Source: Mesostigma viride | Lineage: Eukaryota > Streptophyta > Mesostigmatophyceae > Mesostigmatales > Mesostigmataceae | Direction: 5' to 3' | Length of the DNA stretch: 64,000 nucleotides | Assembly: GCA_009746045.1 (NCBI GenBank) | Contig: RPFO01000106.1 | Location: 1,299,211 to 1,363,210, forward strand | In this document: piece after piece, positions 16,073 to 60,691 of the stretch | Numbering within the stretch: position 1 is the first letter of the stretch | How the letters are laid out: every line of letters begins with the position of its first letter | Translations under genes and position numbers: made by a program | Notes under the pieces: model-generated | Database searches by the model: none | The model's input: the letters and a program-made list of their open reading frames with translations, nothing else | Told to the model about the DNA's origin: nothing

Positions 16073-16168
16073 CTACGCCCAAGTGAGCTGACCCCAAAGG
16101 CTCCGCCTTATGCTAGCTTCCGGGCGGGTGAGCAGGGCCGTTGAGGCCACGTGTCCCCTTTTGCACGG

Positions 16169-16435: not shown

Positions 16436-16473
16436 ATGGAGGCCACATATTATTTGTTAACGCCACGTGTCCC

Positions 16474-18304: not shown

Positions 18305-18772
18305 GTAACCCTATTTTGCAATAAACTAATTCTCGCATCCCAATGACTTGCAATGAGTTCACAGAAGGATAAACATAGATGGAGTTTTGGTGACCCCTAG
18401 CCAGGAGGTGGCCATAGCCAGGGAGTCCGCGGTTTCGCCCCCCTCCACGTCAGCAACCGCCTGAACAGACCTGAACAGACCTGAACATACGCCAGCCAAT
18501 CAGAGAGCTCCGTTTGGTACCTGTCAGCACTGTCAGCGTATTCCAGCCAATCAGAGCACAGCAAAAGGAAACAAACAGGGCGAAAGGAAACACCCAAAAG
18601 GAAACAAATATGGCAAAAGGAAACACTGAAAGGAAACAATTGCCACGGGGCAGCAGCCCATTGGCGGAAAGGAAACAGCCCGGCCCCGCAGAGACCCCAG
18701 GGTGGTACCAGGGAGCCCCAAACGAAACAAACGCAGCAGAATATCTCACCCGGACAGTACCATAGAAGGTCC
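18305..18772. other. Gene-free sub-terminal region of left arm
   Basis: No gene is seen. Apart from an AATAAA signal just after the zinc-protein gene (about 18,321) it holds three nearby copies of a TGAACAGACC-type 10-mer (18,462-18,487), two CCAATCAGAG boxes near 18,494 and 18,548, and the AAAGGAAACA cluster listed separately. It is mirrored at 18,865-19,332. Confidence 0.7.
18564..18677. repeat. Cluster of six AAAGGAAACA decamers
   Basis: Six exact copies of AAAGGAAACA, all in the same orientation, begin at 18564, 18583, 18597, 18616, 18629 and 18668. Two more copies in the arm lie inside the CCAAT cassettes (16926 and 17416). The mirrored cluster is at 18960-19073. The crowding close to the palindrome centre suggests a binding site array, perhaps for replication or telomere handling; this is inference. 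Confidence 0.85.
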
Positions 18773-18864
18773 CTTGTTCTATTTTAGGGTTTCGAGGGTA
18801 GTCCCAAGTTTTGAACGCGCGTTCAAAACTTGGGACTACCCTCGAAACCCTAAAATAGAACAAG
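18773..18864. other. Palindrome centre (possible resolved hairpin telomere)
   Basis: The two arms meet at 18,818/18,819 within GAACGCGCGTTC, with no unpaired loop bases. Just outside is a single TTTTAGGG (18,782-18,789), which equals the telomere repeat unit known from Chlamydomonas; one copy may be chance. As single-stranded DNA this region would fold into an extended hairpin. Confidence 0.75.
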
Positions 18865-18959
18865 GGACCTTCTATGGTACTGTCCGGGTGAGATATTCTG
18901 CTGCGTTTGTTTCGTTTGGGGCTCCCTGGTACCACCCTGGGGTCTCTGCGGGGCCGGGC

Positions 18960-19073
18960 TGTTTCCTTTCCGCCAATGGGCTGCTGCCCCGTGGCAATTG
19001 TTTCCTTTCAGTGTTTCCTTTTGCCATATTTGTTTCCTTTTGGGTGTTTCCTTTCGCCCTGTTTGTTTCCTTT
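18960..19073. repeat. Mirror of the AAAGGAAACA cluster
   Basis: This is the right-arm copy, reading as TGTTTCCTTT six times on the plus strand, in exact mirror positions of the left-arm cluster. Confidence 0.85.
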
Positions 19074-19332
19074 TGCTGTGCTCTGATTGGCTGGAATACG
19101 CTGACAGTGCTGACAGGTACCAAACGGAGCTCTCTGATTGGCTGGCGTATGTTCAGGTCTGTTCAGGTCTGTTCAGGCGGTTGCTGACGTGGAGGGGGGC
19201 GAAACCGCGGACTCCCTGGCTATGGCCACCTCCTGGCTAGGGGTCACCAAAACTCCATCTATGTTTATCCTTCTGTGAACTCATTGCAAGTCATTGGGAT
19301 GCGAGAATTAGTTTATTGCAAAATAGGGTTAC

Positions 19333-20112
19333 TCAGGACTCCTCGGCGCCCTCCAGGGCCGCGGTGAGCCCGGGCAGCCTGTGCAGGCGGGGGAGGGGCG
19401 TGGAGAATCCGCACTTGTTGCAACGGAGGAACTTGTCGTGCACGCAGCGGTTCTGGTTGCACTCGTGGCAGCACTCGGGCTTGTGCCCGTGCCAGCACTT
19501 GATGAAGCACCCCTCCTCGCACTCGGGGCGGTACCCCCCGTGGCGGCACAGGCCGCAATCGCGGCAGGCGAACGTCCACTTGTCGTGAGAGCACCTGGTG
19601 GTGTCCATGGTGGCGGAACCGCGCAACTCGTACAGGCTGTGCCAGCCGGTGGGGGTGGGGGGCTCCTTCGGAGGAGGCAGGGCGCACAGCGGGCACCCGT
19701 ATTTCTTGATGGCCTTCCAGTATATCCGGCTGTGGGGCACGCAGATCCCCAGCTCGCACGAGACGTCCTTGCAGAAGGACACGTTGCCGTGCTGGCACGA
19801 GCTCTTGGGCTTGCAATTGACGCACTTGTTCGCTTTGAAGCCGTGGGGGCACAGCTTGGAGCAGCCCTGGAGGCAACTGGGCTTAAAGATTCCGTGAACG
19901 CACAGGTTGCACTTGGAGCACGAGGACGGACGCTTCCCGTGCTCGCACCCCGCGCGACGGCGCTTCTTCTCCTCCATGGCGATGGCGGGCGTCGTCCCGC
20001 TGTTTCGACTCGTTTCTTTTTGTACCTCCGGGGCGAGCCGGTCGTCAGAGGGCGACACGTCACCGAGAGGGTCTGAGAGATCCTCGTGACACTTGGCGCC
20101 GCGCCGAGACAC
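19333..20112 (-). CDS. Cys/His-rich zinc-binding repeat protein, right-arm copy
   Basis: It is residue-for-residue identical to the 259-residue protein at 17525-18304, and the internal start (MEEKKRRRAG) lies at 19977. The two copies converge on the palindrome centre, so their 3' ends are about 1 kb apart. Identity without any silent difference means the arms are either very recently formed, kept identical by conversion, or an assembly artefact. Confidence 0.8.
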   Translation of the reverse strand: MSRRGAKCHEDLSDPLGDVSPSDDRLAPEVQKETSRNSGTTPAIAMEEKKRRRAGCEHGKRPSSCSKCNLCVHGIFKPSCLQGCSKLCPHGFKANKCVNCKPKSSCQHGNVSFCKDVSCELGICVPHSRIYWKAIKKYGCPLCALPPPKEPPTPTGWHSLYELRGSATMDTTRCSHDKWTFACRDCGLCRHGGYRPECEEGCFIKCWHGHKPECCHECNQNRCVHDKFLRCNKCGFSTPLPRLHRLPGLTAALEGAEES

Positions 20113-20872
20113 CCGGATTTTGCGGTACCCCGGATTGCACCGAAAATGCCCTTTTCAAAATCATCTTTCGGAACAGGCTAAACGCTTTCGGCCAATCAGA
20201 ATGCAGGGATTTGTTTCCTTTTACCCTTCCAGCCAATGGGAATGCAGGGATTGGCCGTTGTCTGTTCCGAAAATGCGAAAGTGCACAGAACGCGCGAATC
20301 TCAATGTTGGCTCCATACAAAAAAGGTGGATTTTGCGTTGGGTCACTGCCTGTGCTGCCTGCATCATACCCTTACTTTTTTATGGTAAAATTATACCATA
20401 AAATATAGGGGTAATTACCCGAAATGCCGCCTGGTGGCCTACCAGCACCTCTTGTTTTTTATGGTATAATTATACCATAAAAATATGGGTATTACCAGAT
20501 ATTCCCACCACGTGGTTTTTGGGAAAATATCCATATTTTTTATGGTATAATTTTACATAAAAATAATACAGCACACAGGTAGGGACCAAACGCAAAATCC
20601 ACCTTTCTTGTATGGAGCCAACATTGAGATTCGCGCGTTCTGTGCACTTTCGCGTTTTCGGAACAGGAAACGCCCATCCGGCCAATCAGAATGCAGGGAT
20701 TTGTTTCCTTTTACCCTTCCAGCCAATGGGAGTGCAGGGATTGGCCCAAACCTGTTCCGAAAGATGATTTTGAAAGGGGCATTTTCGGTGCAATCCGAGG
20801 AAACGCAAAACGCCGCGGTCGACCCAGTACCGCGCCGCGCCGTGATTTTTTTCTGACGTATGATAAAGCGCG
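20113..20872. promoter_or_regulatory. Mirror copy of divergent promoter block
   Basis: Right-arm copy of the block at 16765-17524. The 85-bp cassettes lie at 20177-20261 and 20667-20751, with mirrored CCAAT boxes and AT palindromes. No gene is seen. Confidence 0.8.
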
Positions 20873-21163
20873 ATGGGGGTGGATGACATGAGCCTCGGGA
20901 GCAAAATTGGACTGGGGGCGTGGGCGATTGGACTCCCGTCGTCCCTGCTCATCGGGATAGCCCTGTGGGTGCTGGTGGCGAAATTTAGCGCCCGGCTAAA
21001 CCCGTATAACCCGTCCACGCAGCCGACGCAGTACAAGGACCGGGCGGAACGCCTAAAAAATGTTAAGAGGGCGGGCATCGGACTTACCAGCGCGGCACTG
21101 GGGGTCATATTTATATTTGTAGTAATGTTACTCCTCGGTCGACCTAAGGACACGCCGCGGTGA
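20873..21163 (+). CDS. Small two-helix membrane protein, right-arm copy
   Basis: Identical to the 96-residue protein at 16474-16764. Two hydrophobic segments flank a polar, basic loop. It is followed after 38 bp by the second small membrane-protein gene on the same strand. Confidence 0.65.
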   Translation: MGVDDMSLGSKIGLGAWAIGLPSSLLIGIALWVLVAKFSARLNPYNPSTQPTQYKDRAERLKNVKRAGIGLTSAALGVIFIFVVMLLLGRPKDTPR

Positions 21164-21201
21164 GGGACACGTGGCGTTAACAAATAATATGTGGCCTCCA
21201 T

Positions 21202-21468
21202 GTGACGATCATGGAGTCCCTCAAGACGATACTGGCGTCCCTCAAGACGTGGGCCGCGACACCCGAGGGGAAAATGATCATGCTCGCGGTATGGTTACTT
21301 GGTTTCGTGGGCTCATCCGTACCCCTGTTTGTGAAAACGGGAAACAAAAAGCAATCGGTGAAAGATCGCAACAAATCGCTATTCGTGGCTTTAGCACTGA
21401 TGGGCGTCGGCATAGTTCCGCCAGCGTTATGGGGAGCCAATTACCAGTTGAAAAAATACCAAAGCTAG
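21202..21468 (+). CDS. Small two-helix membrane protein, right-arm copy
   Basis: Identical to the 88-residue protein at 16169-16435. It is the last gene of the right arm; 96 bp further on the symmetry ends and unique viral sequence begins. Confidence 0.65.
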   Translation: MTIMESLKTILASLKTWAATPEGKMIMLAVWLLGFVGSSVPLFVKTGNKKQSVKDRNKSLFVALALMGVGIVPPALWGANYQLKKYQS

Positions 21469-21787
21469 CCGTGCAAAAGGGGACACGTGGCCTCAACGGC
21501 CCTGCTCACCCGCCCGGAAGCTAGCATAAGGCGGAGCCTTTGGGGTCAGCTCACTTGGGCGTAGGTTCAGCACACTTCGTTGCCCTGCACGAACAAATGG
21601 ACGTTCAAAGGCCTCCTACGTTCCACAAGGGTGACCCCAAACCCCCAGTGGGCTGACAGTGGGCTGACAGGTGTGTGGGGGTTACAGTGATTGTTTCCAT
21701 TCAGATGCAATGTGTTTTGTTTGATAAATGTCTTTATTGATTAAAATTATATTGCATTTACATTTCTAGCCACCCAAGTGCATGCAT

Positions 21788-38419: not shown

Positions 38420-39286
38420 CTAGGGCATTTTCGGGACCTGCAGCATTTCGGTGATGGTTTTGTCGAACGTCAACTCGATCCCCTGCTTTACGCACACTTC
38501 CTTGATGAACATCAACTTGTCGAGCGGATACGCGGTCGTCTTGCGGAATAGGTGCAGGCGCTTCTTGAAGGACGGGAAGTCTTCGCCGTACGCGTGCAGT
38601 TGTCCTATCCCGTGCGTCCAAGTCGTGAGTTCCTTGACTTCGATGATCAGATTGGTGTCTCGGCACAACAGGTCGATCTTCCCTCCTCGACACGACACCT
38701 CTCTTTCGGCGCCCAGAGCTTCGGCGAGGGTCTCTTGTATGCAGGCCTCCGTGGGAGGCTGAGGAACGAGAGACACCTCGACGATGTGGGGCGACGGGGG
38801 GCGATTCAGGGACGGATCCTTCTTGAAGCCGTGCACGTTCATGACGGAGTTGACGAGGGAGGGGAAGTCCTTGCAATTGGCGACCTTGGTGCGGAACAGA
38901 GGGGGCAGGTCGTCCAGTAGCGAGATTACGTGTTTGGCGCCTTCGACGGTGGCGGCGATGGGGAGAGAGCCGTAGCACTTGCCGGGGGGGTAGTACGAAA
39001 AGCATTGGGGCAAGTGTCCGAATCCGTGTCCGGTCCCGTGGGTCCTCTTCAACTTTTCGTAGACCGCCTTCGCCATCCTCTGCGCCGTGGAAGGCATCAT
39101 TCCGTCCTCGCGCATGTAGAGACACGTGGAAATTATATCGAGGACGTAGACGTATCCGTCCGGCGTGAACCTGACGGTATTGTGGTGGATGGTGTTCTCC
39201 TCCTGATCCGAATCCGGGACCTCGACCACCGGGGTATCCATTTTGATAAGGGTCGAGACAATGTTTTTGCGGAAATGAACAAACAT
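38420..39286 (-). CDS. Bro-N-like / PD-(D/E)XK nuclease fusion, unpaired copy
   Basis: 288 residues. N-terminal block VRFTPDGYVYVLDIISTCLY corresponds to the shared family start. The FPG-type block is less clear than in the other copies. The C-terminal nuclease part is intact: acidic helix (IQETLAEALGAEREVSC), GGKIDLLCRDTNLIIEVKE with D, E-x-K, then GIGQLHAYG and FPSFKKRLHLFRK. A linker of about 60 residues rich in Pro and basic residues separates the parts. No Bro-N-only partner is adjacent. The upstream gene at 39319 is divergent, 32 bp away. Confidence 0.78.
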   Translation of the reverse strand: MFVHFRKNIVSTLIKMDTPVVEVPDSDQEENTIHHNTVRFTPDGYVYVLDIISTCLYMREDGMMPSTAQRMAKAVYEKLKRTHGTGHGFGHLPQCFSYYPPGKCYGSLPIAATVEGAKHVISLLDDLPPLFRTKVANCKDFPSLVNSVMNVHGFKKDPSLNRPPSPHIVEVSLVPQPPTEACIQETLAEALGAEREVSCRGGKIDLLCRDTNLIIEVKELTTWTHGIGQLHAYGEDFPSFKKRLHLFRKTTAYPLDKLMFIKEVCVKQGIELTFDKTITEMLQVPKMP

Positions 39287-39312
39287 CGTGCGCGTTTTTT
39301 AACTGTTTAGTG

Positions 39313-39317
39313 TATAC
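39313..39317 (+). promoter_or_regulatory. TATAC element before F-box-like gene
   Basis: GTATAC lies one base before the start codon at 39319, after a T-run at 39294-39300. It is unusually close, implying a very short 5' leader. Confidence 0.5.
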
Positions 39318-39318
39318 T

Positions 39319-40170
39319 ATGGCTGGACGGAAGAAGCCTACTCGAGCGAAGGCCAAAACGACTAAGAAGAGAGTGAGACACAAGGTTCGTGCTGGCGATA
39401 CTAAAAAGACAGAGGGTAATAAGCCTGTCGAGTTGAGCTACCCCCCCGAAGTGTACAGCCTCCTTACCAATTATCTCCCTTCCGACGACGCGTTCCGATT
39501 GAGCGGCGTAGAGCGTTCCGCCAATAATGCTGTTTTAGAGGAGTTGCACGGGAATCGACGTCTCGAATCCGACGCTCTATTTGCTAGGAACGCGCACGAA
39601 AATGACCCCAACAATCCCGCGTTTCAGGAAATGGCCAATCGCTTCGGTGATAACATGCCGTATTACCAGAAACAAATGCGGGACAGCCTCGCTAGTTCGA
39701 GGAGCCGTGTCCAACTTGCGCCAGGAAGTCAACGCGATCCCGAAATGTCAAGAGGCGAAAACATGTACCGGGACCAGCTGGCGTATACGAAAACGCGCGA
39801 TTCCGCGGCAGACGAAGATCGTTTCTACTCGGATTGGGATTTGAAACAGAGGCGATTGCTTCTTCAAACACACAGAGATAATGAGCGCAGACGTATAAAG
39901 GCGTTATTTGCACCGAGAATATTACCGGAACATTACAAACCACCTGTCCCTATACTCGTCCCCTATGAGAGAAGATATGCTATGAATAGAGCGATGAAAC
40001 GGGATGTGGATTGGAACAGTGCAGAAAAGAGGCCGCTAATTGATAGTATTGTGACTTATAGAGTTTACAACCGCGACTATGATCCCTACACGAATGGTGC
40101 CGATATAGAGAGAATGAGACGTGATGCCGAAACCCGATTTCGATACAGGAATCAATCGTCCCAATCGTGA
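39319..40170 (+). CDS. F-box-like charged protein, 283 residues
   Basis: The N-terminus is basic and carries KKRVRHKVRAGD, a motif shared with the proteins at 29368 and 44414. Residues about 40-80 (YPPEVYSLLTNYLPSDDAFR and on, LSGVERSANNAVLEEL) match the F-box-like segment of the protein at 29368. The C-terminal two thirds is rich in Arg, Asp and Tyr and probably extended (YERRYAMNRAMKRDVDWNS). It lacks the N-terminal zinc knuckle of its relative. Its 3' end overlaps the convergent small gene by 19 bp. Confidence 0.65.
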   Translation: MAGRKKPTRAKAKTTKKRVRHKVRAGDTKKTEGNKPVELSYPPEVYSLLTNYLPSDDAFRLSGVERSANNAVLEELHGNRRLESDALFARNAHENDPNNPAFQEMANRFGDNMPYYQKQMRDSLASSRSRVQLAPGSQRDPEMSRGENMYRDQLAYTKTRDSAADEDRFYSDWDLKQRRLLLQTHRDNERRRIKALFAPRILPEHYKPPVPILVPYERRYAMNRAMKRDVDWNSAEKRPLIDSIVTYRVYNRDYDPYTNGADIERMRRDAETRFRYRNQSSQS

Positions 40171-44413: not shown

Positions 44414-45757
44414 TTATTTAATTCTCTTTTCCTCAAAGGCTTTTGTCCACCGAAATCCGGGTTGACGCACTTCATCGATTCGGTCATTTATCCTTCGAGG
44501 AGGAGGATTGCGTTGATAGTCTTCCAACTCCCGCTTAAACAGGAAAGGTCTCATTGTGTGAATGTAGTCACCGCCGGACCAAATACGTTCGTGTCGTTGA
44601 AAGAACGGATCGTGACCTTGATACTTTCTATCAGATATGAGTTTTCCGTCTTCATCTCGCAAGTGCCGGTAATGTACCGCGTGCACCATTTCGTGGGTGA
44701 GTAATCTCAGAAGCCATTCCAATTGAGATTTAACTGGAACTCCTTCGTGAACTAAACGGGCAGCTCGCCACAGATAGGTTTTGTGAGATCCGAACAGGTC
44801 CTCGAGGAAATCTCTGTTAATTATGATTCGTTTCCCACCCCATGTCGCATAACCTGCCGTCTGATTGTTTGTATCGAATCTTCTGAACTGAAAGACGACA
44901 TCCTTGGGAAAACCGCCACCAAAAATGTATTTGTCGACGACACCCGCCGCTATCTCGAGGTCCAAGGGAGTCATAACCAACCTCTTTCCGTCATAAATTT
45001 TGTCCGCTTTTTTACCACTAAAACGCTCGAACTCCTGGATTGCTTGGTTGTAGAGAATGGACATGTCCCCAAGAGGAGGCAGGGCTTTCTCGAATCGTCT
45101 GGCGATGTCTGGTCCGGGTCGTCGGTCCACATGGGCTCCTCGTTCCCTGGGCATACTCCTCAAATCGAGCTTCCCGCTTCTGATATCGTCCTTGAATTGT
45201 TGAAGGTCCTTCCTGAAGTTATCGAGGCTGAATTCTTCGGGGGGTGGGGCGTATCGCGCTGTAAACTCGACGAGCGCATTCGGCCTCTCCATTTTCAACG
45301 ATTCCGGATTGAACCACGTGTTCTCGTTGGAAGGGTCATCCGCCCGCCTCGTGAATTGTCTCCATTCGTATTCCTCGGCCAGGAGTCGGGCTTTATTCTT
45401 TTTTTCCCGCGCGATTTTATCCGATTCTACTCTTCCGTATAATTCGTGCATCTTCCCCTTGAGTCCCGAGTAAATTGCTCGCTTGTCCAGAAACGGATTG
45501 CTCGCATCGTACGCGATTCTCTTTATTACGTTCCGTGGAATTTGATCGTAAAGGGATTGCATGTGCGGATCCACTGGCCTCGTCGACAGACCGTTGTCTA
45601 GCGGTCCCTCTTCGGTCTGCGATAGTTTAATCGTGCCTATATCATCCCCGTCGGAGGGACGAGTCGGCACCAGGGACCCTGCTCTTACCACGTGTTTGGC
45701 TTTTCGTTTCGGCGTCGACCGTTTCGCGGTCTTTGCGCAGTTCTTACGAACTGGCAT
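44414..45757 (-). CDS. SprT-like zinc metalloprotease
   Basis: 447 residues. The zinc site is HEMVH at about 354-358, within LLTHEMVHAVHYRH, followed 25-30 residues later by QGHDPFF, which corresponds to the third ligand (HG-x-x-F) of SprT/Spartan-type proteases. Spartan cuts proteins covalently trapped on DNA; the viral role is unknown. The N-terminus is basic with KRKAKHVVRAGS, shared with two F-box-like proteins of the window. A helical middle (MHELYGRVESDKIAREKK) and a conserved-looking FKDDIRSGKLDLRSMPRERG lead into the protease part. A paralog lies at 58673-59833. Confidence 0.78.
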   Translation of the reverse strand: MPVRKNCAKTAKRSTPKRKAKHVVRAGSLVPTRPSDGDDIGTIKLSQTEEGPLDNGLSTRPVDPHMQSLYDQIPRNVIKRIAYDASNPFLDKRAIYSGLKGKMHELYGRVESDKIAREKKNKARLLAEEYEWRQFTRRADDPSNENTWFNPESLKMERPNALVEFTARYAPPPEEFSLDNFRKDLQQFKDDIRSGKLDLRSMPRERGAHVDRRPGPDIARRFEKALPPLGDMSILYNQAIQEFERFSGKKADKIYDGKRLVMTPLDLEIAAGVVDKYIFGGGFPKDVVFQFRRFDTNNQTAGYATWGGKRIIINRDFLEDLFGSHKTYLWRAARLVHEGVPVKSQLEWLLRLLTHEMVHAVHYRHLRDEDGKLISDRKYQGHDPFFQRHERIWSGGDYIHTMRPFLFKRELEDYQRNPPPRRINDRIDEVRQPGFRWTKAFEEKRIK

Positions 45758-45841
45758 GTCTTAATTTGACACGAACATAAATATATTTTTGATTTGCTCC
45801 ACTCGGATCTGTGTAAAAAAATTATTCGTCTGAGTATACTG

Positions 45842-50640: not shown

Positions 50641-53337
50641 ATGGCGATAGTCACCAGACCTCCCGTGACGTGGAAACCCGCAACAGCCACAAATGTTAGA
50701 CCCCCTACCACGCCCGCGCCTACGACAACCGCGGCCGTCCGCCCTCCGTCCTCTTCTACGACGGGGAAGTACGATGACAACAACCCGGTGCACGTGCAGT
50801 ATAAGTCGGGCCTCTTCACGTACTGGGGTCAGCTGAAGGCGGCGACTCCGAGCCAGGCCGTGACGATAAACGCCGCCCTCGCAAAATACATAACGAACAT
50901 CAAGAACGACGCGAAAGCCGCGTTCACGGACTACGACTTCCAAGAACTGAAAAAAAATTACGAGAACCGCGCCTACCCGCTAGCGTCAAAGGCTCCCCCT
51001 CCGGCAGCGGTGGCGATGGCGACGTATACTCCCACTCAACTGGAGTGGAAAACGAGATTGGTGGACGCTTGGAAGGCGGTGAAGGCGAACAACAACGAAG
51101 CGACTCAATCGTTCGCGACGACGACGGAATCACAGGCTCGAAGAGTCGCGTACTTCAAGGACGCGGACATCGCCAAGTTCAAGAGCGAGATCGGAGGAGT
51201 GCCGGATCGTCTGGCCCCCACTCCGACCGTCCCCGCAATGCCGACCGCTCGCCCCCCCGCTCCTCCAACGGCTCCCACCGCCACCGTCCCATCCCCCACA
51301 CCTCCCACCGCCACCGCGCCTGCCCCCTCCGCGCCCGTGGCTTTCGACGACACGAACCCGGACCACATGCGGATGCACAACGCGATCGTGGGGGCGATGT
51401 ACAACGCGGCCACGCAGCCGTCGGCGGAAAACACGTCGATCCTGGACAACCTGGTCGCGAAAGCCAAGACGGATCTGCGATGGTCCGATTCGGCGTTCCT
51501 GTACGTCCAGAACGATTTCAAGCAAGACCACCCCGGGGTGCCGTTGCCGAGTCGCACGCCCTCTCTCGCGCCCCCCCCGCCACCGACCACGACGGCCCCC
51601 CCGCTTCCTCCGCCGACGCTCACGACGGCCGCCCCTCCTCCTCCGCCGACGATGACGGCCGAACAACTCTCGGGCCTGCGACAGGCGTTGGGAGGAGCGG
51701 GCACGGCGTTGGCGACGGCGGGGACGCTCTCGAACGGCGACATGGGAAATAAAATCAAGGACTTTCTGAAACTTCCTAACAACGCGAACGTCAAGTTTTC
51801 GGTCACGAACAAGACCATGAACGCGACGGGGATGTGGAGCTCCACGCAGATACTTTCGTATCTGAACAGAACGACCTGGCCCGCGTCGTCCGTCGGCACA
51901 TTTCCAAACAACGCGGCGTTCGTCTCTTCTTGGACGGTGTCGAGAGACGGTTCCGTGGCGTTCACCGTGCGATGGAAGAGCGCGGATCACGGGTACGCGT
52001 ACGAGCTTTCTTCCGCGATTCCGGCGCCGACTCCGACCCCGGCGCCGACTCCTGCGCCGACCAATCAAAACAGTCAGAACCCGACCGGCGTTTTCGTCGC
52101 CTCGAACTCCACGCACGTCACGTACAGGGACCAGCTGTTCGCGCAATGGGAGAAATGCGTCCAGACCCCGACCCAGCAGTGTCTGGATATCACGACATTG
52201 CTCGAGAACAAAGCGAGGATGGACACGAATTGGAGCGCGGATACCATCGGACTGTTGCGTACCGAGTTCGGCGCGAAGGCGCAGAACGACGACTTGCAAA
52301 AGAGGATCGCGGAGGGCGAGAAGGCGGCGGACGACGGGCGGCTCAAAGACGCGAAGGCGATCTTGGGGGGGATACGCAGTTACCAGGGGCGCGTCACCCA
52401 GGCGTTTCTCGAGCAAAAGAAGGAGGAAATCAAGACGAAGATCCGCGGATTCGTGACGCGACGGGACATCGCGTCGGCCGAGGCGCTATTGACGTTCGCC
52501 ATCGACCAGGAGGTTTTGTGGGATGTCGAAAAGGATAAATACAAGACCGCCGTCGATTTGCTGAAAAGGCAGAAAGATGACACGACGGAGTTCGACACGA
52601 CGATGAAAGCGCTCGTCGTCAAGTGGAACTCCGGAAACGTCATCGAGGCGGTCAAGGGAGAGAAGGAAATCGTAAAACCGTACAACAGTTCTGCGATCTC
52701 CGGTCGTCCGGAGCCGACCGATATCGACCAATTGGCGAAGACGATCGCGATGGAAATGGCGGGGTTCGCGTCCGCCAACAAGGAGCCCACGTTTCAAAAA
52801 AATGCTCTGAGTATGGAAACGCGTCGACAGAAAATCGTCGACGCGATCATCGCGTTCAAGGTGGCGAACCAGGACGGCAAGGCTGCCGAATTGCGGACGC
52901 TGGCTCTCGACAACGGCTATTTCGCGAACGCTAACGGGTTGGACCAGCTCACCGCAATCAGGTCTGCTCCCGGATCGACGGCAACCCCACCACCTCCGCC
53001 TGCTGGGACTACCACAACACCAGCTTCTGGGACCACAACAACACCAGCTTCTGGGACAACCACAACAACTGCTGCAGGGACTACCACAACGACAACAACT
53101 GCTGCAGAGACTACCACCGCACCAGCTTCTGGGACTACCGCGACCTCTTCTCCCGACGCGGCCACTGGAGACACAGCGACTGGAGACACGGCGACTACCT
53201 CGGACACGACCTCGACTACCACAGGCGCGTCGATATTCCCCGCGTGGGACCCGACGGCGATGACATCCGATCAACAATTGGCCGCAGTCGTGATTGCGGC
53301 ATTCTTTGTACTGGTGGTTATTTTACTGCTTAAGTAA
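50641..53337 (+). CDS. Large Pro/Thr-rich membrane-anchored structural-type protein
   Basis: 898 residues. Helical modules of about 90 residues (FTYWGQLKAATPSQAVTINA; YTPTQLEWKTRLVDAWKAVK; VTYRDQLFAQWEKCVQTPTQ) recur at least four times, separated by Pro/Thr/Ala linkers. Near the C-terminus a Thr/Ala/Ser-rich, mucin-like region (GTTTTPASGTTTT) precedes one membrane helix (AAVVIAAFFVLVVILLL). This is a type of stalk protein anchored in the virion membrane. TATAC lies about 17 bp upstream. It is divergent from the helicase gene with a 53-bp gap. Function is otherwise unknown. Confidence 0.68.
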   Translation: MAIVTRPPVTWKPATATNVRPPTTPAPTTTAAVRPPSSSTTGKYDDNNPVHVQYKSGLFTYWGQLKAATPSQAVTINAALAKYITNIKNDAKAAFTDYDFQELKKNYENRAYPLASKAPPPAAVAMATYTPTQLEWKTRLVDAWKAVKANNNEATQSFATTTESQARRVAYFKDADIAKFKSEIGGVPDRLAPTPTVPAMPTARPPAPPTAPTATVPSPTPPTATAPAPSAPVAFDDTNPDHMRMHNAIVGAMYNAATQPSAENTSILDNLVAKAKTDLRWSDSAFLYVQNDFKQDHPGVPLPSRTPSLAPPPPPTTTAPPLPPPTLTTAAPPPPPTMTAEQLSGLRQALGGAGTALATAGTLSNGDMGNKIKDFLKLPNNANVKFSVTNKTMNATGMWSSTQILSYLNRTTWPASSVGTFPNNAAFVSSWTVSRDGSVAFTVRWKSADHGYAYELSSAIPAPTPTPAPTPAPTNQNSQNPTGVFVASNSTHVTYRDQLFAQWEKCVQTPTQQCLDITTLLENKARMDTNWSADTIGLLRTEFGAKAQNDDLQKRIAEGEKAADDGRLKDAKAILGGIRSYQGRVTQAFLEQKKEEIKTKIRGFVTRRDIASAEALLTFAIDQEVLWDVEKDKYKTAVDLLKRQKDDTTEFDTTMKALVVKWNSGNVIEAVKGEKEIVKPYNSSAISGRPEPTDIDQLAKTIAMEMAGFASANKEPTFQKNALSMETRRQKIVDAIIAFKVANQDGKAAELRTLALDNGYFANANGLDQLTAIRSAPGSTATPPPPPAGTTTTPASGTTTTPASGTTTTTAAGTTTTTTTAAETTTAPASGTTATSSPDAATGDTATGDTATTSDTTSTTTGASIFPAWDPTAMTSDQQLAAVVIAAFFVLVVILLLK

Positions 53338-53354
53338 ATTTCCTTCTTTGTTAT

Positions 53355-53359
53355 TATAC
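53355..53359 (+). promoter_or_regulatory. TATAC element
   Basis: TTATACACG ends 7 bp before the start codon at 53369. It also helps to choose this start over an upstream in-frame ATG at 53294, which lies inside the preceding gene. Confidence 0.5.
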
Positions 53360-53368
53360 ACGTCACGG

Positions 53369-53959
53369 ATGAGTTCTTTGTTGACCGAACAACAAAAGCA
53401 ACAACTGGCATTGGAAGAGAAAAAGGTAGCGGAGTTGCACGCGCTCGCTCCGGGCCAAAAAGACGTGAGCGACCTCCAACTCCGATTCGCGGCGGTATCC
53501 GACAAAATGAACCGCGCTCTGCCCAACCTGATTCAGGGCAGCGTCTTGAGGAAAGATAACAGCGCTACAAGTGTCGCAGTAACCGGTGCTTCGACCAACA
53601 TAATTCAAGCGAGCGGGCTAGTCACAGACACGACCGTGGCAGGAACTCGCGCGGTCGGGGATGCCAATCCCAGGTTGACGGAGAAGAATAAGAAAAAGGA
53701 GAAGAAGAAGAGGTTGGCCTGGGCGTTGGGGATTTCGGGAGGCTGTCTTTTGTTGTTATTCGCCGTGCTGCTTTGGCGCAAGTATCATCCGAAGCCTGAA
53801 GTCGCCGCGGAAGCTAGTCCGCCGCTAGATCAAATAGATACTCAAGCTCGGAGAGCTCCCGACAGCAACCCAGAGGGATTATTGCTGGCAATGAATCAAC
53901 AAGTCGGGGATAGAGCTGACGCTCTATTTAACGGGACAGGCGCCCCCGGGACATTCTAG
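53369..53959 (+). CDS. Coiled-coil and single-helix membrane protein, 196 residues
   Basis: The first 35 residues (TEQQKQQLALEEKKVAELHA) are a probable coiled coil. A polar region is followed by a basic stretch (EKNKKKEKKKR) and a membrane helix (LAWALGISGGCLLLLFAVLL). By the positive-inside rule the N-terminus is cytosolic. No family is recognised. Its 3' end overlaps the ribonucleotide reductase gene tail to tail by 36 bp. Confidence 0.65.
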   Translation: MSSLLTEQQKQQLALEEKKVAELHALAPGQKDVSDLQLRFAAVSDKMNRALPNLIQGSVLRKDNSATSVAVTGASTNIIQASGLVTDTTVAGTRAVGDANPRLTEKNKKKEKKKRLAWALGISGGCLLLLFAVLLWRKYHPKPEVAAEASPPLDQIDTQARRAPDSNPEGLLLAMNQQVGDRADALFNGTGAPGTF

Positions 53960-56900
53960 CTCGATATCGTCCGCGTCCATGTGGACGATCCCCTTGTAAT
54001 CGACGGGGCGGAGTGAGGAGCCGTACTCTTCGAACTGCCTCTTGGTGACGACCTCCTGAGGGAGGTACGCGTATCCCAAATCCTTGGCGTTCTTGGTCGG
54101 GTCGGCTCGGTGCAGGAAAGAGACGCCGACGTACGCATCCCAATGGCGTTCGAACCAATCGATGATCGCCGGGACTTCGGAGGGGTCGTAGGACACGGTG
54201 CAGCTGACGTTCTGCTCGCACCAATTCTCCATAAGCGACAGGTACCTGTTGAGCTGATCCACGGCCGACTCCATGTTCACCTCCACCTCCACTTTGGTGC
54301 CGTCCTTCCTCTCCACGGTCTTCTTGGTGAAAGGGACGTTCACGTAGGAGATGGGGAACGTCACGAGGACCGACTCGGCCTCGAAAGGCTTGTCCGTCAC
54401 GCGGTACCCTGCCGCCACGAACCTCTCCACCAGCGGGTCGTGCTTGCTGTAGGTGATGTTGTTGAGGATGTACTTCCCCAGCGGCTTGTGCACGCCCTCG
54501 GGCACCTCGCCCCACTCGGTGGTTGACATAACCTTGGACAGGGTCCCGCTGGGCTTGACGCACGTCACGTTCTTGGGGAGCGGCCTCTTCAGCTCTCGTG
54601 CCATCGAGTAGGCGGCCGAGACGGCCACGTTCTTCATCCTCCTGAAGTCGTACGGCTGCAGATCCGGACGCGAGACGATGCCGGTGAGTCCCACTCCGCA
54701 CAGGTGCAGGAACTGGTTGTTGAGGTGCCAGGCCTCTTGCAGGATCTCGTCGCGCAAGTCGACCATCGTCTGGCGGTAGTTCATCCGGGCGGCCAAGACG
54801 ATGGCTGCCTCCAATCCCGCCTTGTCCCCGGGACGGAACGCGGCGAGGTTTATCTCGGTGAGATTGCAGAAGGACTTGTTGCCGAGGAGGATCTCCCTGC
54901 GCGTACAAAACCGCGAATAAAACATAGAGAGAGTCAGTGACGACGACTCGATGAATTACAACATTATGCGACGGATAATGAAATGTTATAGTTGCAGCGA
55001 GAGATTGAGCGTCGCGTATTGGGACGAAGATGAACAAGACATCGGCTTGTACTTCCACTCTTGCCAGACTTGGAACTTGGTGTGTCCTGGAGCTCACATG
55101 ATATGCTCCCTTTGTTACAATGCCTTGAAGAAGAAAGACGTCTCGTTCCAGGAGCAGTTGCGAAACGTGAGCGGATGCGACTTGGAAGAGCCGGAGGAAG
55201 ACCATCACGAGTTGACGCATCGCGACTACAAGCAGTTGAGCAAGGACGCCATGGTCCTATTGTGCAATTTGAAGGGGGTGCACCTTTCCGACATGCTCAC
55301 ATGGGCCTAGATTTTTTATGCGCGTATACTACTGATGTGCGAGAATGAAGAGATGCATTGCCGAAAATTCGGACGGCGAAAGGTGCTCGAAAAAGGTTTC
55401 GAAAGGAAACGTGTGTCCTCAACACCTGGACTTGATGGGGCGCAATATCTTGGAGCACGAGGACTTACAAAATCAGATATTGTCGCATTTGAGTTCCAAA
55501 GAAATGTTAAGCATGGGAACTTCGTTGGGGAAAACGGCGGATGCAAAAATCAAGAAGAAGTTTGTCGAACGCGCGAAGAAGAAGTTGGAAAACCACGACA
55601 AGGTGATAGATGTGGCAGAAGCAGCGGTGACCCGCTTTAGGAAAAAGCGCGGGAGTCTGACTGACCAGAAAGTGGAAAGAGTGAATAGTGGTCAAGACGA
55701 TGTCGACGTTTCCCGTCGGATTGACGATCTGTACGTGTGGATCGAGGAAACTGAAAAATACCTGGAAGCACTGCATAACGAGCGAAATAAACTGGAACGC
55801 CTCCACAATCAAGCTGAAATTGTGAGTCTCAATTCGTTGGGTAGAACCATGGACACGGAGAATGCGGTACCCCGAACGGCGACGTGGGAAGACGTGGACC
55901 GCTTGCGAGCGGAAGAAGCCGAAGCCAAACGAAATATAGAGAGAATAGCGGAGGAACTCAGGATACCCACTCGCAATCGGCGACACGACAGGATGCTGCA
56001 GTCAGAATCTGACAAATACGCCGACAGATTATTCGACACCGCGTTTGAAATCCCGGAAAAAGAACGCGAAAACTTCCGTTTTTACAACCATTATTTTGCT
56101 AATCAGTAGCGGCATTGGTTTACACTTACCCACATGGGTTGCAGCCGCGGCACCAGGGCGCCCGCTTCTTCGCGACCTCCAGATTCAGCATGCCGGGCTC
56201 CGACCCGCCGGAGTCTTGCATGATCTCGAAGATGTCCTCCAGTTGCTGTCTCGTCGGCTTGGAATGGAACACGAGACTGTTATTGGACTGCTGGCGGTGA
56301 GGGTGGGCGACCCACCACTCCTTCTTGGCGGAGGCGAACTCCCTCCACTCGGTCTCGCCGTAGTCGAACAGCGCGATCTCCGCCGACCTGCGACTGCTCA
56401 ACATCGTCCCGAGGTGGTTCACGACGTCCAGGATGTCCATCTTGGTCAGCAGCTGGTCCGCGCGCTCGGACATGATGCGGGCGATCTTCTCGAACGCGGT
56501 GGCGATCTGAGTGTCTCCCGATGAGAGCCACGAATATCCGGAGAGTCTCTCTCCCCCGGGCCTGATTTCGGAGAAGTCCAGCACGAGCCGCTCGGCGGGC
56601 CACTTTCCGGCCATGAGTTTTCCGGCCGCCTTGGCCCACGCGACCGCCGAGTCCCCGACGGCGATGGTCCACGTCTTCGTGTCCGCGTCCCACGTCTCCG
56701 TGTTGAAGTCCTTTCCTCCCTTGCTCTTCCTCCTCGACCGGATCACCTCGATGTCCTTGATCGCTCTCGAGAAGCCGTTGAGCGTGCCCGTGACTGGGCG
56801 GAATCCGACTCTGCGAGGAATAAAAAAATGTGCGAGATCAGACACGGATGGATGAGGACGTGGAACTCGAGAGACAACAAGCGGCACTGTACAAATACGA

Positions 56901-57337
56901 CTTGTTCATATTGGTGGGATTCGTACTCCTTCGTTTCTTGCTAAATGCGTACTGTCCTCAATGCTGGTGAATTACCCGCATCCTTGCAGAAGGAGCCACA
57001 GCACGTCGACGATGTCGTACACGGTCTCCACCTCGGTGAAGCTGCAGTTGAACATGCAGGACTCCCTCCTCCTGCTCAACTCGGTACCTCCCAGCCATAG
57101 AGTGCGTCCTGCTGGGGCGATCCTCCGGTTCCGAATATGTTCTCTCAATTGTTTCAATTCTTCTTTCTCGTCGCTGTCCAATGCCTTTCCCTCTTTCCCC
57201 CGCACCCACAGCCACTCCTGGTGCGATATCACTCGGTCCACCACGTCCTCCCAGGACTCCAAGGACCCGTCCTCGAGAGGGCGGTGATAGGTCCTCAGAG
57301 ACACCGCCATGGCCCGGTCGGTCGGCGTGGTCGTCAT
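53924..57337 (-). CDS. nrdJ: Adenosylcobalamin-dependent (class II) ribonucleoside-triphosphate reductase, with two introns
   Basis: Exons are 57337-56976, 56810-56130 and 54896-53924; joined they give 671 residues in frame. The enzyme reduces ribonucleoside triphosphates to deoxy forms using coenzyme B12. Family landmarks are present: C98 (MFNCSF, half of the redox pair), GCGVGF at 119-124, NPCGE at 345-349 (radical Cys347, Glu349), the second redox Cys358 (GNKSFCNL) and the C-terminal shuttle pair C663/C668 (ECPGGACPVK). Bacterial monomeric enzymes have about 740 residues, so this one is somewhat short. Both introns split a Gly codon after a Cys (TGY-GG^) in the two most conserved motifs. 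The start is the first ATG, with MAVSLRTYH as an alternative. Confidence 0.93.
54951..55310 (+). CDS. Cysteine-rich (RING-like) small protein nested in intron 2
   Basis: 119 residues on the strand opposite the reductase. C12 and C15 (KCYSCSERLSV), then C36, C43 (FHSCQTWNLVCPGAH) and C50-x2-C53 (MICSLCYNALKKKD) give a spacing like a small zinc-binding or RING-type fold. The tail is acidic and helical (EPEEDHHELTHRDYKQLSKD). No TATAC element is seen before the start; an in-frame second Met exists at codon 6. It is wholly inside the intron, so splicing removes its antisense. Confidence 0.65.
   Translation: MNYNIMRRIMKCYSCSERLSVAYWDEDEQDIGLYFHSCQTWNLVCPGAHMICSLCYNALKKKDVSFQEQLRNVSGCDLEEPEEDHHELTHRDYKQLSKDAMVLLCNLKGVHLSDMLTWA
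55325..55329 (+). promoter_or_regulatory. TATAC element inside intron 2
   Basis: CGCGTATACTACTG lies 15 bp before the start at 55345. It supports independent transcription of the nested gene from within the intron. Confidence 0.5.
55345..56109 (+). CDS. Zinc-knuckle and F-box-like protein nested in intron 2
   Basis: 254 residues. N-terminal C4, C14, C24, H27 (RCIAENSDGERC, NVCPQH) is the small zinc motif shared with four other genes here. Residues about 35-60 (ILEHEDLQNQILSHLSSKEM) look like a short F-box. Long charged helices follow, probably coiled coil (DDLYVWIEETEKYLEALHNE). It has a TATAC element. Its presence in an intron of an essential enzyme gene, on the other strand, means the two transcripts are complementary in this part. 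Confidence 0.68.
   Translation: MKRCIAENSDGERCSKKVSKGNVCPQHLDLMGRNILEHEDLQNQILSHLSSKEMLSMGTSLGKTADAKIKKKFVERAKKKLENHDKVIDVAEAAVTRFRKKRGSLTDQKVERVNSGQDDVDVSRRIDDLYVWIEETEKYLEALHNERNKLERLHNQAEIVSLNSLGRTMDTENAVPRTATWEDVDRLRAEEAEAKRNIERIAEELRIPTRNRRHDRMLQSESDKYADRLFDTAFEIPEKERENFRFYNHYFANQ
56811..56975 (-). other. Spliceosomal-type intron 1 of the reductase, 165 nt
   Basis: On the minus strand it begins GTAATTCACC and ends TTTTATTCCTCGCAG, with a T-rich tract before the acceptor. Removal joins GGATGCGG to AGTCGGATTC and restores the glycyl-cysteinyl motif GCGVGF in frame. A 40-codon ORF on the plus strand fits entirely inside. Confidence 0.88.
56848..56970 (+). CDS. Possible 40-residue membrane peptide nested in intron 1
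   Basis: It reads MDEDVELERQQAALYKYD, then a hydrophobic helix (LFILVGFVLLRFLLNAY) and ends CPQCW. ATG and stop lie within the 165-nt intron, the stop 5 bp from its 5' splice site. An acidic head, one helix and a C-x2-C tail would make a plausible tail-anchored peptide. A run of A lies upstream but no TATAC. It may be a chance frame. Confidence 0.4.
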   Translation: MDEDVELERQQAALYKYDLFILVGFVLLRFLLNAYCPQCW

Positions 57338-57395
57338 TCTCGATCTCTACTCTACCCTCGGAAAACCTCGGAGGCTGTGTGAACGCGTCTGTCGT

Positions 57396-58145
57396 TCACT
57401 TCGACTTGGTATCTGGCGTTTTCGCCGCGTACACCTTCCCGTCGATGATGGCCACCTTGATGGCGGCAGGGCCAAGGTAGCGGACGAAGACCACCTTGAC
57501 GCCTTTCGGGGCCACTCTCTTGAAGAAGATCTCGGGCTCCAGCATAACTTTGATCGATTTCGCGGGGATTTCCTTTGGCAGCGATTGCCCGGTAGTCGTG
57601 TCGCGACGAAGAACCACGAGCGTGTCGTTTTTCTTGGTGTACGCGATGTAGTCGCCCACCATGGCGATGTCCGTGCCCATGAAGTCCGCCGCTCCGACAA
57701 GCCTCTTGTCTTGCGACCAGTAGGCCGAGCTGCGACTCGTCACCTTGGACGTGATTTCGAACTCCGCCAAACGTTTTTCGTTTGAGACGACGGTAGCTCC
57801 GTCGTCTGGGACGGACGTCGCCGGAGTCAATTCCGGGCCGCCAGGGGTCGTTTGCGTGTCTTTTTTGGCAAGTTTCTTAAAGTTCGTGAGCGGGTCGTGT
57901 TTGACGTTCATCACGATCGCCGCGATCAACGCGAAGATGGCGATGGCCACCACGACGATGATCGCGATGACGATAGGGGTCTTATCGTTTCCATCACCCC
58001 TCTCTACTATGAGTTTCATGACGCCTTTAGGAAGCTCGGGACTGGGAGGACTCGGAACACCGTCTGTCCCTCGCGAGGAGCCAAACGAAGACATGGAACC
58101 CAAAAATTGAAACAAATATCCCAGGAGTTGCACAAGATCTGACAT
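57396..58145 (-). CDS. Single-helix membrane protein with folded tail, 249 residues
   Basis: The start chosen, MSDLVQLLGYLFQFL, follows a GTATACAC element by 3 bases (TATAC at 58148-58152 on the minus strand); an ATG 15 bp upstream is less likely. A polar N-terminus precedes one strong membrane helix (PIVIAIIVVVAIAIFALIAA). The C-terminal 150 residues form a beta-rich domain (FMGTDIAMVGDYIAYTKKND; KVVFVRYLGPAAIKVAIIDG). No family is recognised. It lies just upstream of, and on the same strand as, the reductase. Confidence 0.65.
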   Translation of the reverse strand: MSDLVQLLGYLFQFLGSMSSFGSSRGTDGVPSPPSPELPKGVMKLIVERGDGNDKTPIVIAIIVVVAIAIFALIAAIVMNVKHDPLTNFKKLAKKDTQTTPGGPELTPATSVPDDGATVVSNEKRLAEFEITSKVTSRSSAYWSQDKRLVGAADFMGTDIAMVGDYIAYTKKNDTLVVLRRDTTTGQSLPKEIPAKSIKVMLEPEIFFKRVAPKGVKVVFVRYLGPAAIKVAIIDGKVYAAKTPDTKSK

Positions 58146-58147
58146 GT

Positions 58148-58152
58148 GTATA
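58148..58152 (-). promoter_or_regulatory. TATAC element before membrane-protein gene
   Basis: GTATACAC lies directly before the ATG at 58145 on the minus strand. Confidence 0.5.
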
Positions 58153-58213
58153 CCATTCACGAAGAAGTTTTAGGAGAGTATTTATTATTGCAAAAGTTTC
58201 ATTCGAGATATCT

Positions 58214-58669
58214 TCATTTTTTCCCGTTGTTAATATGTTCCAAATACAGGTCGTGTTCATTGGCGTGATTGATTCCGCCTAGAGCGTTCCATGACCGCTC
58301 CTCGTCCAACCAGTGGTCCGCCACAAGTTCGGCATCCGCCTGCGTTTGCCTGTCGATCATCATGGCCGCCACCATGGCTTTTCTCCTCTCCTCTTCTGTC
58401 TCCTCTCGTGTGCGCCACGGAGTTCTCGTGCGATCACGCAGATAACGCCCCACTTGAAACTCTTGCATGTTGCGCTCTTCCTCCGACTCGTACTTTCTCT
58501 TCTCGTGACGCGGAACCCGGGCGCGCTCGATAGTGGGAGTCTGTTTATTGTCCCCCCCCGCCCGCATTCTGTGGGATGCGCGTCTCCTTCTTCCTCCGTG
58601 CACATGGCACGGGGCGCGGTTTCTGCACGCACCTCCTTTAATCGTGGCCTTGCCGCACTTCATTTGCAT
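58214..58669 (-). CDS. Zinc-knuckle protein, 151 residues
   Basis: The N-terminus has KCGKATIKGGACRNRAPCHV followed by His, the same C...C...C..H pattern as four other proteins here. The rest is Arg/Glu-rich and probably helical (REETEEERRKAMVAAMMIDR), ending with a charged tail that includes HDLYLEHINNGKK. It starts 3 bp after the stop of the SprT-like gene on the same strand, so the two may share a transcript. The second Met (MKCGK) may be the true start. Confidence 0.6.
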   Translation of the reverse strand: MQMKCGKATIKGGACRNRAPCHVHGGRRRRASHRMRAGGDNKQTPTIERARVPRHEKRKYESEEERNMQEFQVGRYLRDRTRTPWRTREETEEERRKAMVAAMMIDRQTQADAELVADHWLDEERSWNALGGINHANEHDLYLEHINNGKK

Positions 58670-58672
58670 GCT

Positions 58673-59842: not shown

Positions 59843-60691
59843 TCACGCGCAAATCCTCTTGGCCTCCCTCTCCTCCTTCTGCTTCAGTCTCATCACTTTC
59901 TGGTTCTCCTGGATGCAAGCAACGTCTACGCGACTATCGTGCAACCCCCTCGCTTTAAACAGTGGCTCCATACTTTCCCGGCTCCTCTTCGACACCAACA
60001 CGGGATTCTCGTCCGTCCGCTTAATCTCGTCCGCCTCGCTAAGTTGCATGAAGGTCATGGCCGCCGCTTGGATGCGGCTCTGGAGGTCGCGAGACGACCC
60101 TCTTGCGTTGTATACGGCTCGGAGTTGAGTGGCCGTCTTCCCCGTTACGGCCAGATTGTTGGTGTCGTGCACCGTGGGATACAACATGCCGCACCCCTTG
60201 TGCTTGTCCATGTACTCCTTGATGGAGTCGTTCAACTCCCGCGTCGACCAGCTGCTCGTGATGCGAGGGTGCTCGTCCAGGTTAGCAACCGCCACCCCAG
60301 ACGCCGCGTCGGCGCGGCGAAGGATGTCCTCGGCCAGCGTCCGGTCGGCGTTCAAGTAGCGCTCCAATAAGACAGACACCTTCTCGCGGAACTTTGCCGC
60401 GATCTTGCCGGGGAGAAGCATTAGTATCCGAGTCAGACCCTGACGGTCCGTCACCGGAGTGTCTCGCTGCCTGGCCCCGGGGAATTTCCAGTTGTAAAGA
60501 AAGTTTACAACTTCCTCATTGGTCGACTGGAGGTTCTTCAGATAAACCCTAGGGTTAGACATGCCTATCGCAGCCATCGCATCGAACACTGATATTCTTC
60601 CGTCATCTGTCACGCGGATCTTGCCAGCAAACTCAGGGTCGTCCTCTTCGCCGTTAACAGGCCTAAGGTGTTTTAACAACAAGTCCGCCAT
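59843..60691 (-). CDS. Bro-N-like protein
   Basis: 282 residues. KIRVTDDGRISVFDAMAAIG with MSNPRVYLKNL and WKFPGARQRDTPVTDRQG closely resembles a classic Bro-N domain (the SNPR turn is typical). A helix LLPGKIAAKFREKVSVLLER follows. The C-terminal half is helical and ends basic (KEEREAKRICA). A TATAAAAA box lies 15-20 bp upstream of the start. Next to it on the same strand is a broken copy (60947-61146) and then an intact Bro-N/nuclease gene, echoing the pair at 26-27.8 kb. Confidence 0.77.
   Translation of the reverse strand: MADLLLKHLRPVNGEEDDPEFAGKIRVTDDGRISVFDAMAAIGMSNPRVYLKNLQSTNEEVVNFLYNWKFPGARQRDTPVTDRQGLTRILMLLPGKIAAKFREKVSVLLERYLNADRTLAEDILRRADAASGVAVANLDEHPRITSSWSTRELNDSIKEYMDKHKGCGMLYPTVHDTNNLAVTGKTATQLRAVYNARGSSRDLQSRIQAAAMTFMQLSEADEIKRTDENPVLVSKRSRESMEPLFKARGLHDSRVDVACIQENQKVMRLKQKEEREAKRICA

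Follow-up and report, generated by a model that had tools for sequence, protein, structure and literature searches.

Putative spliceosomal homing introns with exchangeable, mostly antisense cargo in the ribonucleotide reductase gene of endogenous nucleocytovirus-like elements

Genes housed in viral introns, and introns in viral genes, have been described in several systems, which are cited here from parts of the papers concerned. In pseudorabies virus (PRV), an alphaherpesvirus, ul15 encloses the convergently oriented genes ul16 and ul17, which splicing removes (PMC3389743). Mirusvirus spliceosomal introns harbour more than 2000 genes, and the spliceosomal homing introns among them, or "shintrons", were said in 2025 to have no apparent equivalents in eukaryotes or in other viruses (PMC12768974). 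The capsid gene of Faustovirus E12 has 12 introns, two of which contain open reading frames (ORFs) for GIY-YIG homing endonucleases; five are group I introns, all borders are non-canonical, and some introns are thought to be spliceosomal (PMC6247863). Finally, an endogenous phaeovirus of Ectocarpus carries spliceosomal introns in 14 of its 372 genes (PMC13236599). Here, we analyse a 64,000-nt stretch of the Mesostigma viride genome assembly (contig RPFO01000106.1, our C1635:1299211-1363210; hereafter the window), in which the class II ribonucleotide reductase (RTPR) gene of a nucleocytovirus-like element appears to be split by two introns that house opposite-strand ORFs, and we compare this gene with its sister copies in the same genome.

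The RTPR copies have three intron sites, s1 (GCG/VGF, the slash marking the intron position), s2 (GYxW./SSGD) and s3 (NPCG/E), each filled or empty copy by copy. We propose that these are fixed sites at which spliceosomal introns of endogenous-nucleocytovirus RTPR come and go. An antisense HNH-type endonuclease expressed from within an intron would cleave the conserved site in RTPR copies that lack the intron, and repair of the break would copy the intron in; the introns probably spread by such homing. Once established, an intron would become a tolerated dock, in which the endonuclease may decay and other small viral genes, mostly antisense, may take its place. The window copy would represent this later, refilled stage, with a 254-aa finger-protein gene and a 119-aa ORF at s3, a 40-aa ORF at s1, and s2 empty. 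The spliceosome would remove both window introns, and the enzyme would be made from three exons. On balance, we regard it as probable that the RTPR introns are spliceosomal homing introns whose endonuclease has been replaced by other genes in the window copy. We lean, by a small margin, towards the wider statement that nucleocytoviruses own canonical GT-AG homing introns that invade RTPR at fixed sites via an antisense HNH endonuclease and then become reusable docks, the more than 100 endogenous copies recording every stage of the cycle, from the empty site through the endonuclease intron and the relic to new cargo.

The window RTPR gene (57337-53924, minus strand, stop included) consists of three exons (Table 1). 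An uninterrupted phage-type RTPR, from locus L014, spans the three pieces in tblastn, its sole unaligned residue, 360, being the codon split by intron 2 (at s3). Together with the match of exon 3 to the solved RTPR 1l1l_A, similarity to known ribonucleotide reductases (RNRs) extends over the length of the gene, and the NPC motif is present. Exon 2 resembles the RNR-II insertion domain below the Pfam cut-off (2.4e-4), and exon 3 has no Pfam match at E 1. In viral contigs, 18 loci (L001-L018) hold RTPR relatives that are 57-67% identical over the query exon; the four of them that were read (L014, L016, L017, L018) are phage-like by their ORFs. Thus, the phage-type class II enzyme is similar in sequence but uninterrupted in these four loci, in contrast to the intron-split window gene. 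A perfect short hairpin (ATAGAGC-GTCA-GCTCTAT, window 53910-53927) lies over the RTPR stop codon, within the end of an overlapping plus-strand ORF (53294-53959).

The junctions proposed in the initial annotation, 56976^56810 and 56130^54896, are correct to the base according to the exon coordinates and the L014 alignment, and its GT-AG borders, which restore GCGVGF and NPCGE in phase, hold for both introns. Both split the Gly codon of a Cys-Gly pair; for intron 2, a weaker alternative border pairing exists, shifted by 4 nt. Because the border method itself looks for GT-AG, control anchors matter: an in-phase GT-AG pair was found within 5 nt for 15 of 15 introns tested, versus 51 of 744 slid control anchors. 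Self-splicing introns and inteins use conserved RNR motifs like the present sites, and the Faustovirus capsid introns provide a precedent for group I introns together with endonuclease ORFs (PMC6247863). In the window, an Rfam search over 53200-58200 with E up to 5 retrieved neither a group I nor a group II intron, and the canonical GT-AG borders carry no such signature. In addition, the reading frame meets a stop after each donor, which speaks against an intein. We therefore hold self-splicing elements of either kind to be next to impossible here.

Likewise, it is very improbable that the gene is a decayed reductase which insertions have split into pieces. Its element is endogenous and stops do occur in some copies (3 TGA in the C2068 copy), but the window exon frames are open, with a GC content at third codon positions of 0.78-0.88. 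Exon 2 is 92% identical to that of L053, with proportions of nonsynonymous (pN) and synonymous (pS) differences of 0.057 and 0.427, and all 19 resolved introns, from the sister copies and the window, have exact borders. These features indicate that the three parts join as one gene, as initially annotated, and support its reading as an RTPR gene with two spliceosomal-type introns.

The sites are occupied differently from copy to copy. Exon 3 has at least 125 matches in the genome, at least 104 of them full length (lower bounds, 124 of 181 candidates having been scored), and exon 2 has 155. The s3 distance was measured for the 96 full-length copies that could be paired with an exon 2, 8 being unpaired: 21 have no insert (3 nt) and 75 have one (132-9372 nt), with nothing between 4 and 131 nt. 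Filled distances fall at 132-141 nt (12 copies), 200-500 nt (7), 500-1300 nt (48) and above (8); the largest gaps (2310, 3258 and 9372 nt) may join exons of different copies. At s2, among the matches listed, 118 exon-2 matches reach residue 225, and 85 of these start at residue 86-95, which marks a break; 32 continue across the site and 1 is intermediate. Two pairs of RTPR copies lie close together, one on C547 with a spacing of 11.3 kb and one on C2059 with a spacing of 9.5 kb.

Intron regions were read in the window copy (WIN), L027, L053-L062 and the C667 copy (L066, L067). L057, where exon 2 was not found within 2.1 kb upstream of exon 3, is not counted. This yielded 19 resolved introns from 11 lineages, all of them GT-AG and in phase, some admitting a second, weaker pairing. 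L027 is one of 12 copies, the other 11 being 97.3-99.8% identical over the aligned parts. Site s2 is empty in WIN, L053, L055, L058 and L062; s1, whose state was read in the sampled copies other than L056, L060, L061 and C667, is empty in L027, L054, L058 and L062. In the exon tree, in which 5 of 11 inner branches are open, L059 (s1 and s2 filled) is sister to L062 (none filled; support 100/99), and L027 (s2) is sister to L054 (s2 and s3; support 81/94, 94.6% amino acid identity over 130 residues).

The candidate agent of this mobility is found in the sister introns. One HNH-type family is encoded, antisense in three of three cases, in L066 s2 (209 aa), L059 s2 (107 aa) and L060 s3 (230 aa), that is, in three lineages and at two sites. 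The proteins are mutually 41-58% identical, comparisons with L059 spanning 93 residues. They match 67 (L066), 101 (L059) and 115 (L060) phage records; some of these bear the annotation "putative HNH endonuclease" or "endonuclease VII", and many are labelled "hypothetical" or carry no annotation. Hence, each of these GT-AG introns contains a putative homing endonuclease gene, and for each of them relatives have an intron-free allele at the same site. The L066 copy belongs to the window's own clade: its exon 3 (C667:3821662) is 90% identical to that of the window, and its s2 is filled by the antisense HNH-type gene whereas the window s2 is empty. The neighbouring C667 s3 intron retains, in antisense orientation, a relic of this family's zinc repeats (52% over 52 residues, tblastn 6e-18); the same search gave no match in a reversed C667 s3 control and none in WIN s3. 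These genes, invisible from the window alone, offer a better explanation than the initial annotation could provide, and the variation between sister copies suggests mobile introns that serve as docking sites.

Ordinary host-type spliceosomal introns could also have been gained by an endogenous or nuclear virus, the genes having fallen into neutral ground, with the HNH-type ones as passengers and no homing. The introns of the endogenous phaeovirus, as far as the cited part of that paper goes, need no homing (PMC13236599), and one intron-housed family also occurs free-standing in the element. Against this stand the presence of one HNH-type family at two sites, its invariable antisense orientation and the empty sites in close relatives; we judge an origin without homing rather unlikely.

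What the introns hold differs strongly between copies. Among the 19, 11 contain antisense ORFs, two sense ORFs, one the antisense relic, and five nothing clear (Table 1). ORF lengths were compared with 300 shuffles each, in a set that excluded L059 s1, L056 s2, L060 s2 and the C667 introns. None of the 300 reached the ORFs of WIN s3, L027 s2, L053 s3, L055 s1, L060 s3 and L061 s3; p was 0.003 for L059 s2, 0.043 for WIN s1, 0.037 for L053 s1, and 0.003 (sense) and 0.01 (antisense) for L056 s3. L058, L060 and L061 are 93-95% identical in the exon piece, yet at s3 L058 has nothing clear, L060 the antisense HNH-type gene and L061 a 191-aa ORF in sense orientation. Intron contents turn over faster than exons. 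A source of refills is visible, since antisense ORFs in L060 s2 and L061 s2 are 60-65% identical to a free-standing ORF at window 59843-60691. The latter belongs to a multi-copy family (window 26058, 28433, 59843) that may be KilA/BRO-like; a tested member had no Pfam match, and we leave the family unnamed. An A-rich promoter of the antisense genes was considered as a ready-made pyrimidine tract, but upstream of 105 free ORFs A/T rises only slightly at -30 to -11, and we do not adopt this idea.

In the window itself, the initial annotation had reported two opposite-strand ORFs in the larger intron and one in the smaller, and the sequences support conservation of at least two of them. The 254-aa ORF, the length of which was reached in none of the dinucleotide shuffles, has an ortholog in the s3 intron of L053 (48% amino acid identity over 249 codons, pN 0.313, pS 0.559); it evolves fast, yet appears to be under some purifying selection. 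The 40-aa ORF, marginal on length alone, is kept in the s1 intron of L053 (16 of 38 residues identical, tblastn 3e-8). For the 119-aa ORF, no relative turned up in the window or in loci L027-L062; it is an orphan and the least certain of the three. Since coding is conserved in the 254-aa and 40-aa ORFs, complete opposite-strand genes would lie within introns, predicted to be spliced, of a viral gene. WIN s3 and L053 s3 are the same intron by their nested gene, with borders 2 nt apart, likely through intron sliding.

The best Pfam match of the 254-aa protein is YebG (0.0026, below cut-off), and a single-sequence AlphaFold2 model has a low confidence (pLDDT 62). A pattern scan, run without a chance control, covered two sister loci, L039-L044 and the viral portion of the window; seven ORFs, this one included, have an N-terminal finger of such a kind (C-x8..10-C-x4..11-C-x2-H). 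In IMG/VR, no relatives were confirmed for this protein, for the helicase or for the multi-copy family. Neither the 254-aa nor the 119-aa ORF had an endonuclease match, and the 40-aa ORF had no Pfam match. A basic N-terminal leader ending in HRVRAG or similar, possibly a processing or sorting signal, recurs in ten ORF frames; nine of them belong to the element of the window (including window 39250-40167, 44417-45760 and 58217-58672, and ORFs in L043 and L044), and the tenth is the nested ORF of L027.

The initial annotation was not aware of such antisense housing in other viruses; it has precedents in PRV ul15 (PMC3389743) and, for genes in introns, in mirusviruses (PMC12768974). As in the UL15/UL16/UL17 system of alphaherpesviruses, a viral intron houses two complete opposite-strand genes and is, here by prediction, removed by splicing. 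The likeness is one of arrangement; a single fixed gene pair is described there in the part of the report cited, whereas contents turn over between RTPR copies. It had also been suggested that the nested genes could regulate the reductase through double-stranded RNA. The geometry alone gives complementarity to the unspliced transcript. However, the nested ORFs are wholly intronic, the 254-aa ORF stop lying 20 nt from the intron donor, so that they would pair with the unspliced transcript or the excised intron and not with the mature message, unless untranslated regions reach the exons. Moreover, contents differ or are absent between close copies and two sister introns hold sense ORFs. This idea is weak, and we give very little credence to the nested genes having evolved for such a role.

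Several observations weigh against the homing account that we favour. We infer both splicing and transcription of the nested genes from sequence. Antisense housing is a tendency only, given the introns with sense ORFs and those with nothing clear. An intact HNH-type gene is missing from 16 of the 19 resolved introns. Pfam gives no HNH domain in L059 or L060, and PHROGs matches are weak (L059 to endonuclease VII at 6e-4) or, for L066, nil; the family assignment therefore rests on the phage matches and on a presumed HNH-type sequence pattern in L066, L059 and L060. The relic search was run without composition filters, and it also gave a weak sense-strand match in L061 s3 (0.007, 23 residues) beside the strong L067 matches. 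A search with the sister HNH-type proteins found neither an endonuclease nor a remnant of one in the window s3 intron, nor is the 254-aa protein a recognised nuclease. For want of an endonuclease, we do not class the window introns as shintrons. The sampled copies were hand-picked to span identity and open-frame classes, and are thus non-random. Finally, s3 borders vary by 1-2 nt across lineages, which could reflect sliding or separate gains, and the patchy presence of introns could result from repeated loss.

Table 1 Features of the window RTPR gene and resolved introns of the sister copies. Antisense and sense are relative to RTPR.
Feature	Position	Strand	Size	Description
RTPR exon 1	56976..57337	-		ends ...LLLQGC-GG; Pfam RNR_Alpha 2.1e-8; phage-type RTPR residues 10-132
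RTPR exon 2	56130..56810	-		VGF...NPCG; phage-type RTPR residues 133-359, 66%
RTPR exon 3	53924..54896	-		EILLGNK... to stop; PDB 1l1l RTPR 8.2e-9; phage-type RTPR residues 361-682, 66%
WIN intron s1 (GCG/VGF)	56811..56975	-	165 nt	GT-AG, phase 2, tgcgg/GTAATT...CTCGCAG/ag
WIN site s2 (GYSWL/SSGD)	56519..56530	-		empty, no intron in window copy
WIN intron s3 (NPCG/E)	54897..56129	-	1233 nt	GT-AG, phase 2, tgtgg/GTAAGT...GCGCAG/gg
Nested ORF in WIN s1	56848..56970	+	40 aa	antisense; hydrophobic centre, ends YCPQCW
Nested ORF in WIN s3	55345..56109	+	254 aa	antisense; N-terminal C-x9-C-x9-C-x2-H finger, remainder mostly helical
Nested ORF in WIN s3	54951..55310	+	119 aa	antisense; Cys-rich; best Pfam match 0.098, below cut-off
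L027 intron s2			632 nt	antisense ORF, 200 aa
L053 intron s1			174 nt	antisense ORF, 42 aa
L053 intron s3			850 nt	antisense ORF, 253 aa
L054 intron s2			132 nt	nothing clear
L054 intron s3			566 nt	nothing clear; sense frame continues past acceptor, not counted as gene
L055 intron s1			384 nt	antisense ORF, 108 aa
L055 intron s3			129 nt	nothing clear
L056 intron s2			925 nt	antisense ORF, 182 aa
L056 intron s3			973 nt	sense ORF, 164 aa, overlapped by an also long antisense ORF, 159 aa
L058 intron s3			610 nt	nothing clear
L059 intron s1			98 nt	nothing clear
L059 intron s2			435 nt	antisense ORF, 107 aa
L060 intron s2			1226 nt	antisense ORF, 293 aa
L060 intron s3			751 nt	antisense ORF, 230 aa
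L061 intron s3			835 nt	sense ORF, 191 aa; s2 left border not reached, s2 not among the 19
C667 intron s2			728 nt	antisense ORF, 209 aa
C667 intron s3			227 nt	antisense relic
L062				no intron at s1, s2 or s3

The eukaryotic assembly comprises 2243 contigs (440 Mb), and the window lies inside one of 2.5 Mb, which rules out a free virus. Its first 16 kb are host-like, with polycystin exons (PKD_channel 2.1e-8, Polycystin_dom 1.1e-14) and tandem repeats. The 140 kb to its right, read as separate 10-kb pieces, encode major capsid proteins (Capsid_N/Capsid_NCLDV), a Pox_A22 resolvase, YqaJ, an AEP primase domain and PCNA; D5_N and Pox_A32 matches are weak, below cut-off. The element thus has the double-jelly-roll major capsid protein and core genes of nucleocytoviruses. 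Because the host-like left flank and these genes occur in one eukaryotic assembly, the RTPR locus is, judged by its gene content, an endogenous giant-virus (nucleocytovirus-like) element. The gene initially annotated as viral lies in this element of a eukaryotic genome, not in a free virus.

Other features of the element were recorded. At the edge between its host-like and viral parts, the window contains a perfect, spacerless palindrome (16073-21564, arms of 2746 nt each, 100% complementary), which represents either terminal repeats of the virus that have fused or an artefact of assembly. In two major capsid proteins (L042 6484-9999 and L046 6362-8719), Capsid_N and Capsid_NCLDV flank a laminin-G/ConA-like domain. 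Four ORFs that agree in length and N-terminus are repeated 4.5 kb apart (L047 7132-9971 and L048 1631-4470), through either a recent tandem duplication or an assembly duplication. A 1200-aa ORF (L050 3108-6710) has a DDE_3 transposase-like domain.

Within the parts of the papers cited, the RTPR introns share with mirusvirus shintrons GT-AG borders, protein genes, HNH endonucleases (putative in RTPR), gene preference and variable presence in close relatives, and the mirusvirus MING-1, which is other cargo at one fixed site, is comparable to the cargo observed here (PMC12768974). They differ in that the element is endogenous and nucleocytovirus-like, the target is RTPR, the nested genes are mostly antisense, an orientation on which the cited mirusvirus text is silent, and the window introns have no recognised endonuclease. 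Like the Ectocarpus phaeovirus, in which a minority of genes are concerned, the present case combines an endogenous nucleocytovirus with introns of spliceosomal type; neither nested genes nor endonucleases are mentioned for the phaeovirus introns in the text cited (PMC13236599). Faustovirus E12 shares a nucleocytovirus gene with endonuclease-bearing introns, but these involve GIY-YIG instead of HNH enzymes, group I or non-canonical borders, and a capsid gene, and the text cited mentions no antisense orientation (PMC6247863). On that text, no closer precedent was found among nucleocytoviruses, and endonuclease-bearing introns are in themselves less novel for it. In the titles and abstract openings searched, with subscription papers and preprints largely outside, no GT-AG homing introns in a nucleocytovirus are described; in this literature, "shintron", as well as nucleocytovirus, spliceosomal intron and HNH together, led to PMC12768974 only.

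It has long been asked how spliceosomal introns are gained and how they spread. Within a single gene and a single nucleus, the RTPR copies present empty sites, putative endonuclease introns, a relic and apparently refilled introns side by side. Because all these states coexist, intron gain, homing and cargo exchange would be directly testable.

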